NCBI RefSeq assembly: GCF_029504735.1
Contig: NZ_JAQFIP010000001.1
Coordinates: 124,001-188,000 of the forward strand
Length of the DNA stretch: 64,000 bases
Source: Ereboglobus sp. PH5-10
Lineage (GTDB): Bacteria > Verrucomicrobiota > Verrucomicrobiia > Opitutales > Opitutaceae
Direction: 5' to 3'
Below, piece by piece: positions 9,420-12,965 of the stretch. Numbering within the stretch: the stretch's first letter is position 1; every line of letters begins with the position of its first letter. The notes beneath the pieces are model-generated. The model saw nothing but the letters and a program-made list of their open reading frames with translations. It was not told the origin of the DNA and ran no database searches. The position numbers and the translations under genes are program-made.

Positions 9420-9546
9420 CCCAGAAGACCAGAGGCCAGAAAGCCAGAACCCAGCTACAAACCACCAAGCCTCCTGCCTTCGTCTCCGGCTTTCTACATT
9501 CTGACTCCTGACTCCTGTATTCTGACTCCTTTTCCCTCCTCTTTCC
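9420..9546 (+). repeat. Two heptamer repeat clusters between czcB and czcA
   Basis: The 133-bp gap is mostly repeat. 9420-9454 has four units of the type CCAGAAG; 9491-9546 has units TGACTCC, TGACTCC, TGTATTC, TGACTCC followed by pyrimidine-rich copies up to the czcA ATG. No Shine-Dalgarno sequence is left in front of czcA. Confidence 0.7.
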
Positions 9547-9548
9547 CA

Positions 9549-12500
9549 ATGATCAATCGCATCCTCGAATTCTCCCTTCGCCAGCGCCCGCTCGTTTTGC
9601 TCGGCGCGCTCGCGCTTCTTCTCGCCGGACTCTGGTTTGTCAACCGCCTGCCGATCGACGCCGTGCCCGACATCACCAGCACGCAAGTGCAGATCAACAC
9701 CGAAGTCAAAAACCTCGCGCCCGAGGAAATTGAAAAGCTCGTCACCTTTCCCATCGAAATGGAAATGAGCGGCATCCCCGGCGCGCGCGAAATGCGCTCG
9801 CTCTCCAAGTTCGGCCTCTCGCAAATCACGATCGTCTTCGAGGACTCTGCCGACATCTATCGCGCCCGCCAGCTCGTCGCCGAACGCCTTGCCAACGCCG
9901 CCGAGTCGCTCCCCCCCGGCCTCGCGCCCAAGCTCGCCCCCATCACCACCGGCCTCGGCGAAATCTACTACTACGTTGTCGATTACAAACACGACGCCGC
10001 CGGATTGAGTGGCATGGGCGACTCGCCCATGGGCTCGGGCGGATCGGGTGGCATGGCCGACCCGGCCATGTCTGCATCCCACAAACATCCTGAACACGGG
10101 CGGGTCACCCATGCCACTCAACCCGCACAACCCATTCCGCATTCCGCACTCCGCACTCCGCATTCCCCGATCCCCGCCACGCGCCCCGAGCAACTCATGG
10201 AGCTCAAGCTCCTCCACGACCAAGTCATCAAGCCCGCCCTGCGCGCCGTCCCCGGCATCGCCGAAGTCAACGCCTCCGGCGGCTACGAAAAACAAATCCT
10301 CGTCTACCCGCGCCCCGACGCGCTCCTCGCCGCCGGCATCACCACCGCCGAGCTCGCCGACATCATCGCCGCCAACACCGAAAACGCCGGCGGCGGCGCG
10401 GTCCAAATCGGCGCCGAGCAAATCATCATCCGCGCCGATTCCCGCGTGCAAACCACAGACGACATCGCGCGCCTGCCCGTGAAGTTTCGCGGACTCGCCT
10501 CGCGCCCCCTCCTCGTCTCCGACCTCGCCGAGGTTGCCATCGGCTCCTCGATCCGCACCGGCTCCTCCACGCACAACGGACGCGAGGCCGTGCTCGGCTC
10601 CGCCCTCATGCTCACCGGCGAAAATCCCCGCATCGTCGCGCGCCGCATCGCCGAAAAAATCGACGAACTCCGCCCGCGCCTCCCCGACAACGTCGAAATC
10701 ATCACCGTTTACGACCGCACCGAACTCGTTGACCGCACCATCAACACCGTCGCGCACAACCTCACCTACGGCGCGATCTTTGTCGTGGTCGTTCTCCTGC
10801 TCCTTCTCGGCAACATCCGCGCCGCCCTCATCGTCTCGCTCGCCATCCCCCTCTCGTTCCTCTTCGCCATCACCGGCATGGTCGAGACCAACCTCAGCGG
10901 CAACCTCATGAGCCTCGGCGCGGTCGACTTCGGCCTCATCATCGACGGCGCCGTTGTCATGGTTGAAAACATCGTTCGCCGGCTCGGCCTCCGGCAGCAC
11001 GAAATCGGACGCCCGCTCAACGCCGCCGAGCGCAACCAAACCGTCCTCTCCGCCGCCAAGGAAGTCGGTCGCCCCGCGTTCTTCGGCGTCCTCATCATCA
11101 CCATCGTTTACATCCCGCTGCTCTCGCTCACCGGCATCGAAGGCAAAACCTTCAAGCCCATGGCGCTCACCGTCATCTACGCGCTCATCGGCGCGATCAT
11201 CCTCACGCTCACGCTCATGCCCGTGCTCAGCAGCCACATCCTCCGCGGCAACATCTCGCACAAGGACAACCTCGTCATCCGCGCCCTCAAGGCCGCCTAC
11301 CGCCCGCTGCTCGCGGTCGCGCTCCGCCTCCGCTGGCTCATCGTCGCCGCGTCGATCGCGCTCTTCGCCCTCGCCGCGCACACATTTAAAAACCTCGGCG
11401 CCGAGTTCATCCCGCAACTCGACGAAGGCTCGTTTGCCACGCACATGATCCGCACCACAAGCATCGGCCTCGACGCCTCCGTCGCCATGCAGGAAAAAAC
11501 CGAGCAAATCATCCACCAACAATTCCCGGGCATCACCACGACCTTCTCGCGCATCGGCACGCAGGAAGTCGCCACCGACCCGATGGGCGTCAACGTCGCC
11601 GACACCTACATCTTCTTCAAACCCTTCGACCAATGGCCTGCCGGATCGAGTGGCACGGGCGACTCGCCCGTGGGATCGAGTGACATGGCCGACCCGGCCA
11701 TGCGTTCAGCTCACAAACATCCGGAACATGGGCGAGTCGCCCATGCCACCCACCCTGTGCCAACCTCCAAGTCCGACCTCGCCGCGCAACTCACCGCCGC
11801 GCTCGAAACCGCCATCCCCGGCCAGGCCTACCTCTTCAGCCAGCCCATCCAAATGCGCTTCAACGAAATCCTCGAAGGCACGCGCGCCGACATCGCCGTG
11901 AAAGTCTTTGGCGACGACTACGACCAAATCGAGCACATCGCCACCGAGGCGCGCGAAATCCTCGAGGCCATCCCCGGCGCCGCCGACGTCGAATTCGACT
12001 CGCTCGGCAAATCCCCGCTCCTCGAAATCAAACTCAAGCCCGACGCCATGGCGCGCTACAACATCCACGCCTCCGAACTCAACGCCGCCGTCGAAACCGC
12101 GCTCGCCGGCGCCGATGTCGGCACGGTCATCGAAGGCAACCGCCGCATCCCCATCGTCGTGCGCGTCACCGACGACATCCGCTCCCGCACCGAGGAAATC
12201 CTGCGCATCCCGCTCCGCGCCGAATCGCCCGACACCCTCCTCACGCTCGGCCAGGTGGCCGACCTCGTCGTCACTGAAAAAGTCGCCGCCATCACCCGCG
12301 AGTCCGGCCAGCGCCGCGCCGCGATCATGGTCAACCTCCGCGGCCGCGACGTGGAAAGCTACGTCCGCGAGGCGCAGCAAAAAATCGCCGCCGAAATCAA
12401 GCTTCCCCCCGGCTACACGATCGAGTTTGGCGGCTCCTTCCAAAACCTGCAACAAGCCCGCGCCCGCCTCGCGATCATCGTGCCCGCCGCGCTCGCGATC

Positions 12501-12965
12501 ATCTTTGTCCTCATATTCATCGCCTTCGGCAGCCTTCGCCAGGCGCTGCTCGTTTACACGGGCATCCCGCTCGCCGTCACCGGCGGCGTCTTCGCGCTCT
12601 GGCTGCGCGACATGCCCTTTTCGATCAGCGCCGGCGTCGGCTTCATCGCCCTGAGCGGCGTGGCAGTCCTCAACGGCCTGATGATGGTGAGCCATTTCAA
12701 CACCCTCCGCGCCGAAGGCCTGAGCGTCCGCGACACGGCCATCGAAGGCGCACTAACCCGCCTCCGCCCCGTCCTTATGACAGCACTCGTCGCCAGCCTG
12801 GGCTTCCTCCCCATGGCACTAGCAACAGGCCCCGGCGCCGAAGTCCAACGCCCCCTAGCAACGGTCGTCATCGGCGGAATAATCACAGCAACATTCCTGA
12901 CGCTGATACTATTGCCCGCGCTGTATGATACGTTTGAGAAGAAACAAAGACCTGAGAGCAGATGA
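9549..12965 (+). CDS. czcA: Heavy-metal efflux RND permease, CzcA/CusA family (with two in-frame repeat insertions)
   Basis: Inner-membrane proton/metal antiporter of the RND superfamily. The DFGLIIDGAVVMVEN motif in the TM4 region is the proton-relay signature of heavy-metal RND proteins, and LDEGSFATHMIRTTSIGLD and FSQPIQMRFNEILEGTRADIAVKVFG are also characteristic. At 1138 residues it is about 100 longer than usual (about 1040). The excess is two insertions encoded by a palindromic DNA element: residues about 150-208 after GLGEIYYYVVDYKHD and residues about 697-736 after FFKPFDQWP. Both fall in periplasmic porter-domain loops and keep frame, and all other motifs are intact, so the gene is probably functional. 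It ends before a bidirectional terminator. Confidence 0.95.
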   Translation: MINRILEFSLRQRPLVLLGALALLLAGLWFVNRLPIDAVPDITSTQVQINTEVKNLAPEEIEKLVTFPIEMEMSGIPGAREMRSLSKFGLSQITIVFEDSADIYRARQLVAERLANAAESLPPGLAPKLAPITTGLGEIYYYVVDYKHDAAGLSGMGDSPMGSGGSGGMADPAMSASHKHPEHGRVTHATQPAQPIPHSALRTPHSPIPATRPEQLMELKLLHDQVIKPALRAVPGIAEVNASGGYEKQILVYPRPDALLAAGITTAELADIIAANTENAGGGAVQIGAEQIIIRADSRVQTTDDIARLPVKFRGLASRPLLVSDLAEVAIGSSIRTGSSTHNGREAVLGSALMLTGENPRIVARRIAEKIDELRPRLPDNVEIITVYDRTELVDRTINTVAHNLTYGAIFVVVVLLLLLGNIRAALIVSLAIPLSFLFAITGMVETNLSGNLMSLGAVDFGLIIDGAVVMVENIVRRLGLRQHEIGRPLNAAERNQTVLSAAKEVGRPAFFGVLIITIVYIPLLSLTGIEGKTFKPMALTVIYALIGAIILTLTLMPVLSSHILRGNISHKDNLVIRALKAAYRPLLAVALRLRWLIVAASIALFALAAHTFKNLGAEFIPQLDEGSFATHMIRTTSIGLDASVAMQEKTEQIIHQQFPGITTTFSRIGTQEVATDPMGVNVADTYIFFKPFDQWPAGSSGTGDSPVGSSDMADPAMRSAHKHPEHGRVAHATHPVPTSKSDLAAQLTAALETAIPGQAYLFSQPIQMRFNEILEGTRADIAVKVFGDDYDQIEHIATEAREILEAIPGAADVEFDSLGKSPLLEIKLKPDAMARYNIHASELNAAVETALAGADVGTVIEGNRRIPIVVRVTDDIRSRTEEILRIPLRAESPDTLLTLGQVADLVVTEKVAAITRESGQRRAAIMVNLRGRDVESYVREAQQKIAAEIKLPPGYTIEFGGSFQNLQQARARLAIIVPAALAIIFVLIFIAFGSLRQALLVYTGIPLAVTGGVFALWLRDMPFSISAGVGFIALSGVAVLNGLMMVSHFNTLRAEGLSVRDTAIEGALTRLRPVLMTALVASLGFLPMALATGPGAEVQRPLATVVIGGIITATFLTLILLPALYDTFEKKQRPESR
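9998..10124. repeat. Palindromic insertion element, copy 1 (inside czcA)
   Basis: About 127 bp containing nested palindromes such as GGCATGGGCGACTCGCCCAT and CATGGCCGACCCGGCCATG, with a right end (GGGTCACCCATGCCACTC) that is roughly the inverse of the left end. It aligns with copy 2 at 11639-11757 almost throughout, apart from an extra 8 bp near its centre. It encodes residues of the type SGMGDSPMG, GMADPAM and HKHPEHGRVTHAT. Confidence 0.85.
10134..10168 (+). repeat. Heptamer repeat (ATTCCGC/ACTCCGC) inside czcA
   Basis: Five 7-bp units ATTCCGC, ATTCCGC, ACTCCGC, ACTCCGC, ATTCCCC directly after palindromic copy 1. Together they make one composite in-frame insertion of about 58 codons. Confidence 0.8.
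11639..11757. repeat. Palindromic insertion element, copy 2 (inside czcA)
   Basis: About 119 bp homologous to 9998-10124. Left end GAGTGGCACGGGCGACTCGC, centre CATGGCCGACCCGGCCATG, right end ATGGGCGAGTCGCCCATGCC. The two ends are inverted copies of each other and each is itself palindromic. It encodes about 40 extra residues of CzcA. Confidence 0.85.

Follow-up and report, generated by a model that had tools for sequence, protein, structure and literature searches.

Inteins and homing elements are well-known examples of mobile enzymes that reside in frame in conserved proteins, many of them essential, and occupy the same site in several genera. Moreover, Ogata et al. are said to have described, in 2000, the Rickettsia palindromic elements (RPEs), in-frame palindromic insertions in unrelated genes. 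The RPEs are the better-known parallel for in-frame palindromic elements, according to the relevant part of PMC10969869. Intragenic copies of the GTAG/GTGG superfamily of REPs were published in 2013, with Opitutus terrae having the largest number (Di Nocera et al. 2013, PMC3733652). The relevant parts of this paper state that most of the O. terrae GTAG-20 REPs bear GTGG, that each of the two uvrA genes of this bacterium carries a double REP insertion, that the intragenic CGTC repeats of R. conorii are equated with RPE-4 and RPE-6, and that CGTC repeats are not associated with transposase genes. RAYTs are regarded as the enzymes that mobilise REPs (PMC8266576), and an earlier survey set aside a small number of long TnpA proteins, taking them for gene fusions or for errors of annotation (PMC6006769). 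Since REPs inside O. terrae genes have already been published, the elements that we describe here in a czcA gene are a further member of that kind. Intragenic REPs are thus known, and what is new relative to the literature found are RAYTs located in frame inside host enzymes: No report of such proteins was found in the literature outside subscription papers, preprints and supplements, and section 16 of PMC3733652 makes no mention of RAYTs in frame within host genes.

The DNA analysed here, the window, is a stretch of 64 kb in which open reading frame calling identifies czcA as a single open frame (9549-12965, 1138 amino acids). Its product matches ACR_tran (PF00873) in Pfam, and the solved structures nearest to it are those of ZneA and CusA. 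The locus comprises:

9549..12965, + strand: czcA-type RND heavy-metal efflux pump, 1138 aa, host of both inserts (open reading frame; PF00873; relatives ZneA/CusA)
10002..10124, + strand: insert 1, REP trimer (+)(+)(-) with 7-nt outer feet (GGATTGA ...), encodes GLSGMGDSPMGSGGSGGMADPAM...HGRVTHAT
10009..10031, + strand: insert 1, REP unit 1 (GTGG tag and palindrome), codon phase 1
10048..10070, + strand: insert 1, REP unit 2
10095..10117, - strand: insert 1, REP unit 3, inverted
10133..10166, + strand: heptamer array (CATTCCG)4.9 right after insert 1, in frame too (PHSALRTPHSP)
11643..11756, + strand: insert 2, REP trimer (+)(+)(-), encodes GSSGTGDSPVGSSDMADPAM...HGRVAHAT
11650..11672, + strand: insert 2, REP unit 1, codon phase 1
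11680..11702, + strand: insert 2, REP unit 2
11727..11749, - strand: insert 2, REP unit 3, inverted

The preliminary description had reported two homologous palindromic elements in frame within czcA, and both are indeed present, at about 10002-10124 and 11643-11756. Each of them contains three palindromes, i.e. three units of 23 bp that combine a GTGG tag with a near-perfect palindrome (8-bp arms) in the order (+)(+)(-), and the peptide HKHPEHGR is encoded in both. When the window was searched with the 21-mer unit (up to three mismatches), seven matches at five distinct places were obtained, a count in which one palindrome may match on both strands, and the mean of 100 shuffles was 0.01. The tags of the trimer face outward, and the outer foot is conserved. 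As judged by these sequence features (hairpin, GTGG tag, conserved outer foot, outward tags), the czcA elements are assigned to the GTAG/GTGG superfamily of REPs. The parallel with the RPEs that had been drawn thus holds for the behaviour of the elements, which sit in frame, in unrelated genes and in a loop of the pump and also have intergenic copies, but not for membership: they are GTGG-tagged REPs.

Among 80 named relatives from many phyla, the median length is 11 residues for loop 1 and 15 for loop 2 of the pump, as compared to 67 and 53 residues in our CzcA. This corresponds to about 56 and 38 added residues, in good agreement with the initial estimates of about 58 and 40. In the case of insert 1 the size was right, but a part of the extension (10133-10166) is the heptamer array and not the palindromic element; the array adjoins insert 1, and the extra residues of loop 1 therefore come from two sources. 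A degenerate heptamer-like array is also found between genes at 9420-9540 of the window, and the in-frame arrays in the czcA loops (10133-10166; L110, L111) vary among congeners. Seven CzcA homologues, taken from six genomes that represent other genera of the family, all lack both inserts, and together with the loop medians of the 80 relatives this shows that the pump of other genera lacks the extra loops. The best-matching named relatives are mostly verrucomicrobial MAGs, the top one being labelled Kiritimatiellia. The loops might simply be periplasmic loops of variable length that expanded in this lineage, their repeat-like DNA being a product of slippage or convergence: One of the 80 relatives per loop has a long stretch as well, unrelated in sequence to the REP insert, and heptamer arrays and other repeats occupy the same two loops in the congeners G001 and G003. 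Yet, the same units with the same edges are found in many unrelated genes and outside genes, and the controls gave 0 matches, which makes this explanation extremely unlikely. Long unrelated extensions in one of the same two loops were seen in a Parachlamydiaceae and a Phycisphaeraceae CzcA (L162, L166).

The two insert sites align near residues 152-159 and 648-660 of CusA. From the alignment with CusA and ZneA and from the general topology of RND pumps, we take both sites to be periplasmic, as had been suggested before. In an AlphaFold2 model of CzcA, the pLDDT is below 50 at residues 157-202 and 701-732, i.e. in the inserts, which are thus predicted to be disordered; the only other residues with such values are 673-676 and 1135-1138. 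In the congener G001, insert 1 of czcA has one REP fewer, and insert 2 contains a heptamer-like stretch instead of any unit within two mismatches. In G003, both loops are filled by other repeats. The presence of different repeats in the same two loops of congeners indicates that these loops are insertion-tolerant sites. It is conceivable that the inserts were recruited for pump function, e.g. for metal binding by the His residues of HKHPEHGR, a peptide that is present in both of them. This is very unlikely, as the insert 2 of G001 is devoid of a REP unit and its insert 1 is shorter, and the same type of peptide is found in unrelated proteins. Moreover, omega is 0.54 and 0.73 for the insert codons and 0-0.28 for three stretches elsewhere in the pump, albeit on few codons. 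For REP-encoded stretches in general, omega ranges from 0 to 0.73 on 18-43 codons. The czcA inserts are expected to be tolerated disordered loops rather than to confer a new function upon the pump. In G001, two frameshifts split czcA in a single-contig assembly (L110); this gene may be a pseudogene or the result of read errors, and the pump may be dispensable.

The czcA elements belong to a dispersed family. In the own genome (G000; 3.58 Mb, 45 contigs), a 23-mer pattern with up to three mismatches gave 51 matches, some of them palindromes counted on both strands, and the reversed-pattern control gave 0. With a stricter pattern, six of 16 relatives had matches, both within the genus (G001, 14; G002, 52; G003, 17) and elsewhere in the family (G005, 94; G007, 3; G004, 1). 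In three genomes of the genus, the units are arranged in 74 blocks of one to four units each. Whether a copy is genic or not, its conserved sequence starts seven bases ahead of the tag (GGRTYGR), and a C directly precedes the element at 36 of 57 genic and 38 of 57 other outward edges. Each letter of the GTGG tag is retained in 55-57 of the 57 outward genic units, a retention that is favoured by the search pattern with its tolerance of up to three mismatches. The spacing of tandem units does not clearly differ between genic and other copies. Neither a target-site duplication nor a precise empty site could be established for the REP copies.

How the copies are distributed between coding and other sequence, and in which frames, was determined with a codon model, by which 300 bp on each side of a block were scored and the REP sequence was excluded; the model had been trained on eight genes of the own genome that are themselves REP hosts, so that their flanks are not independent of it. 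In 34 of the 74 blocks, both flanks are coding in one frame that is open through the element (own genome, 15/21; G001, 4/9; G002, 15/44); most blocks of G002 (29/44) were not scored as in-frame genic. Three of the 34 (L415, L417, L422) were admitted by hand, having a stop in the scanned span where the gene starts or ends. As for the other 40 blocks, two have both flanks coding on the same strand in another register, four have the same register and a stop, 15 have one coding flank, and 19 have none. The count covers blocks with at least one unit of up to two mismatches (leaving out, e.g., L429), and the scan left out five weak single-hit regions (L099, L100, L103, L104, L105) and the czcA match of G001; the blocks of G002 stem from 31 fetched regions, as compared to its 52 matches. 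All 14 host open reading frames of the own genome that were sent to Pfam besides czcA belong to known families (Pfam; NCBIfam names):

Own-genome REP hosts: nuoM, nuoG, two E2 acyltransferases, U32 peptidase, dnaE, histidine kinase (inside HATPase_c)
Own-genome REP hosts, continued: mutL, purH, aroA, PD-(D/E)XK nuclease (its block is below the score threshold and outside the 34), CoA-enzyme activase, hrpA, hsdR

The copy in aroA is a loop variant, and those in mutL and the U32 peptidase gene are common to G000 and G001. In the 34 blocks, 46 of the 47 sense units are in one codon phase and read SG(T/M)GDSP(V/M) or near it, while the antisense units are spread over the three phases (21, 9, 1). 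These counts are not fully independent, given the shared mutL and U32 copies and the linkage of units within a block. As many as 150 of 163 REP units lack a stop in any of the six frames; of the 34 in-frame blocks, 23 can be read through in each of the three sense frames. The use of one phase by the sense units is thus not explained by openness. The edge of the element coincides with a codon boundary in genes, and the phase bias could partly result from target choice, as a C precedes the element at most genic edges and the CC dinucleotides of coding sequence are found mostly at codon positions 2-3; however, with 1261 of 2664 CC dinucleotides in this phase, target choice alone looks too weak. 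It seems likelier that selection on the encoded peptide causes the bias.

None of the eight RAYT loci of the own genome that were identified as Y1_Tnp matches in a profile search and fetched (1.5 kb on each side where the contig allows) contains a czcA-type REP unit, and none of the 51 REP matches is near a ninth RAYT match (C2:120787) among the matches listed. A RAYT gene of the congener G002 (L259) is flanked on both sides by a trimer of the same (+)(+)(-) build with other loop letters; such loop variants account for 21 of the 77 REP units in the fetched G002 regions. The RAYT has no stop codon, and together with its two trimers it forms an in-frame part of the isochorismate synthase gene menF, resulting in one frame of 770 amino acids with Y1_Tnp and Chorismate_bind domains (Pfam). 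Among 66 RAYTs, the embedded ones included, the reading frame ends before the flanking repeat in 34 cases, inside it in seven and beyond it in 18, and seven have no repeat; the 34 cases indicate that not every RAYT frame continues through the flanking repeats. Other RAYTs of the genus are flanked by classical GTAG-tagged REPs (L034, L258; L038), GTAGGGGCGCACC... and GTAGCACAGACATT... G003 has 42 Y1_Tnp matches, many of them in frames of about 340-380 amino acids that match only positions 5-67, an expanded element unlike the present RAYTs.

In total, 14 cases of RAYTs with an HUH motif embedded in host frames were found, 13 of them without a stop:

alaS: RAYT at one site in G000, G002, G065, G103 and G039, four genera (L325, L326, L327, L312, L328)
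menF: RAYT at one site in G002, G071, G036 and G007, four genera
Creatininase: RAYT with a creatininase domain on either side, in G000 and G001
Cas_NE0113 (CARF-like)/adenosine deaminase protein: RAYT in G048 (L405, 118-2889)
Eco57I-type/N6-methylase protein: RAYT in G114 and G009

Among the matches listed, 139 genomes have an alaS match and five of them carry alaS-RAYT; for menF, matches were obtained in 142 genomes, a number that may include other chorismate enzymes, and menF-RAYT is found in four. G002, G065 and G103 have a single alaS match and G039 has two pieces of one gene, again among the matches listed, so that the interrupted alaS is the only one seen in these carriers at the threshold used. 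The RAYT is located at the site of residues 419/424 of human AlaRS, where about five residues are replaced by about 200. The same linker harbours non-RAYT extensions of 46 to 117 residues in other genera (L331, L333, L334, L339, L353), indicating a tolerant site within the family. In the creatininase case, two genes may have been joined with the RAYT in between, rather than one gene having received an insertion. The Cas_NE0113/adenosine deaminase protein presumably resembles the CRISPR-linked Cad1, and an extra REP-like stretch occurs further along its frame. Candidate fusions had been collected as large open frames around RAYTs, and 16 regions were fetched from among the matches listed. Of these 16, 13 combine a long frame with the HUH motif and three do not (L316, L320, L321). 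Only L312 and L319 are genuine in-frame insertions. L309, L310, L311, L313, L314, L315, L317, L322 and L324 were rejected by eye as chance upstream extensions, Arg-rich and unlike protein, and L323 is a RAYT whose ends are REP-like and in which no host part was recognised. In L318, the RAYT is followed by other coding sequence that we take to be DUF1638-like.

Most of the host genomes are drafts, and the embedded RAYTs might be errors of assembly or annotation, or decaying pseudogenes. In the own genome, alaS is indeed divided over two contigs at a repeat, with low-complexity sequence at the break, and in the methylase gene of G009 (L371; same site as in G114) the host sequence that follows the RAYT keeps the register but is preceded by one in-frame stop. 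The long TnpA proteins discarded in PMC6006769 were likewise regarded as fusions or errors of annotation. Against this, the same alaS site is occupied in five genomes of four genera and the same menF site in four genera, and G001 and G007 are assemblies of one and two contigs, respectively. Moreover, all 14 cases retain intact HUH and Y motifs, and the omega values of the RAYT parts are 0.13-0.27 in the seven estimable pairs. We consider errors or decay exceedingly improbable. In the Pfam scans, Y1_Tnp matched all 13 open reading frames scanned of the 14 cases, L312 being just under the cut-off; these 13 show only host domains and Y1_Tnp, with no splicing domain. In all seven pairs, omega of the RAYT is below that of the host part, with some overlapping intervals; of the 11 pairs compared, RAYT omega was saturated in four. 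The embedded RAYT parts are thus under purifying selection, and we infer that the domains are preserved as enzymes.

A tree built from 68 fetched RAYTs has one clade with the alaS-borne copies (100/99) and another with the menF-borne copies (100/98). The alaS clade has no free-standing member among these 68, and a search of 150 genomes gave nothing else with more than 46% identity to it. In a tree of the N-terminal half of AlaRS (without G000), the carriers are scattered: G002 groups with the RAYT-less G001, G065 stands apart, and G103 groups with G039. The identities of RAYT and host part in the alaS pairs are 0.81/0.79, 0.69/0.68 and 0.77/0.71; one menF pair has 0.62 for the RAYT versus 0.80 for the host. 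That RAYT identity tracks host identity in alaS argues against a recent spread or transfer of alaS-RAYT. Both one old insertion followed by many losses and old transfers remain as possible histories.

Taken together, we consider it highly probable that the czcA inserts are REP trimers of a kind presumably moved by RAYTs which have survived in tolerated loops and in a tolerated phase, and that the same route made RAYTs domains of host enzymes. The trimer would be a non-autonomous element of the kind presumably moved by RAYT transposases (TnpA_REP, HUH/Y1): The RAYT may excise or copy a single-stranded REP element and join it into a target, and an insertion would survive where the loop tolerates it and the phase is that of GSSGTGDSPV, and would otherwise be purged. 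In genes, the element starts at a codon boundary, and its sense units are read as a peptide rich in Gly, Ser, Asp and Pro. By the same route, RAYT genes could have become inserted domains of alaS, menF and other genes. An embedded RAYT would be made by host translation, and any frameshift would break the host gene too, which might protect the transposase. It is tempting to go one step further: in this bacterial family, RAYTs may occupy an intein-like niche without splicing, as stop-less REP-RAYT-REP domains in housekeeping enzymes including the only AlaRS, where essentiality guards the frame and the RAYTs have diverged with their hosts under purifying selection; the czcA REPs would then be the non-autonomous, coding-compatible form, with a stop-free GTGG tag, a codon-boundary edge and a linker peptide. 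We give this extended view an even chance of being correct.

REPs are named extragenic, yet 15 of the 21 counted blocks of the own genome are in frame inside genes and in one phase. With such copies, the conversion of mobile DNA into protein sequence becomes directly countable. The embedded RAYTs are transposases retained as a conserved domain of an essential enzyme. They suggest a route for the persistence of a selfish element and provide a natural AlaRS-transposase fusion. Surveys that discard long transposase proteins hide such RAYT-host fusions.

How does this locus relate to known systems? (i) As in inteins, a mobile enzyme is in frame inside a host protein at a fixed site in several genera; in contrast to inteins, the Pfam scans reveal no splicing domain, and the RAYT seems to stay as an inserted domain. 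(ii) As with the RPEs, a palindromic element is inserted in frame in unrelated genes, but the tag is GTGG and not of the CGTC type, so that the two are set apart by tag class and not by the letters of the RPEs. (iii) The O. terrae GTAG-20 and intragenic GTAG/CGTC REPs, as described in the relevant parts of PMC3733652, resemble the czcA elements in being short palindromes with a mostly GTGG tag that occur as dimers and groups, in having copies in known genes with two insertions in one gene (uvrA), and in their verrucomicrobial host. The differences, by comparison with that description, are czcA and the other hosts, the measured codon-phase bias, and the RAYTs in frame inside host genes. (iv) Finally, the embedded RAYTs share the HUH and YxxNP motifs and the flanking of the gene by REPs on both sides with the RAYT/TnpA_REP genes and REPtrons, as far as these are covered in the relevant parts of PMC8266576 and PMC6006769; whereas the REPtrons described there are separate genes, the frame reported here crosses both REP blocks into the host protein.
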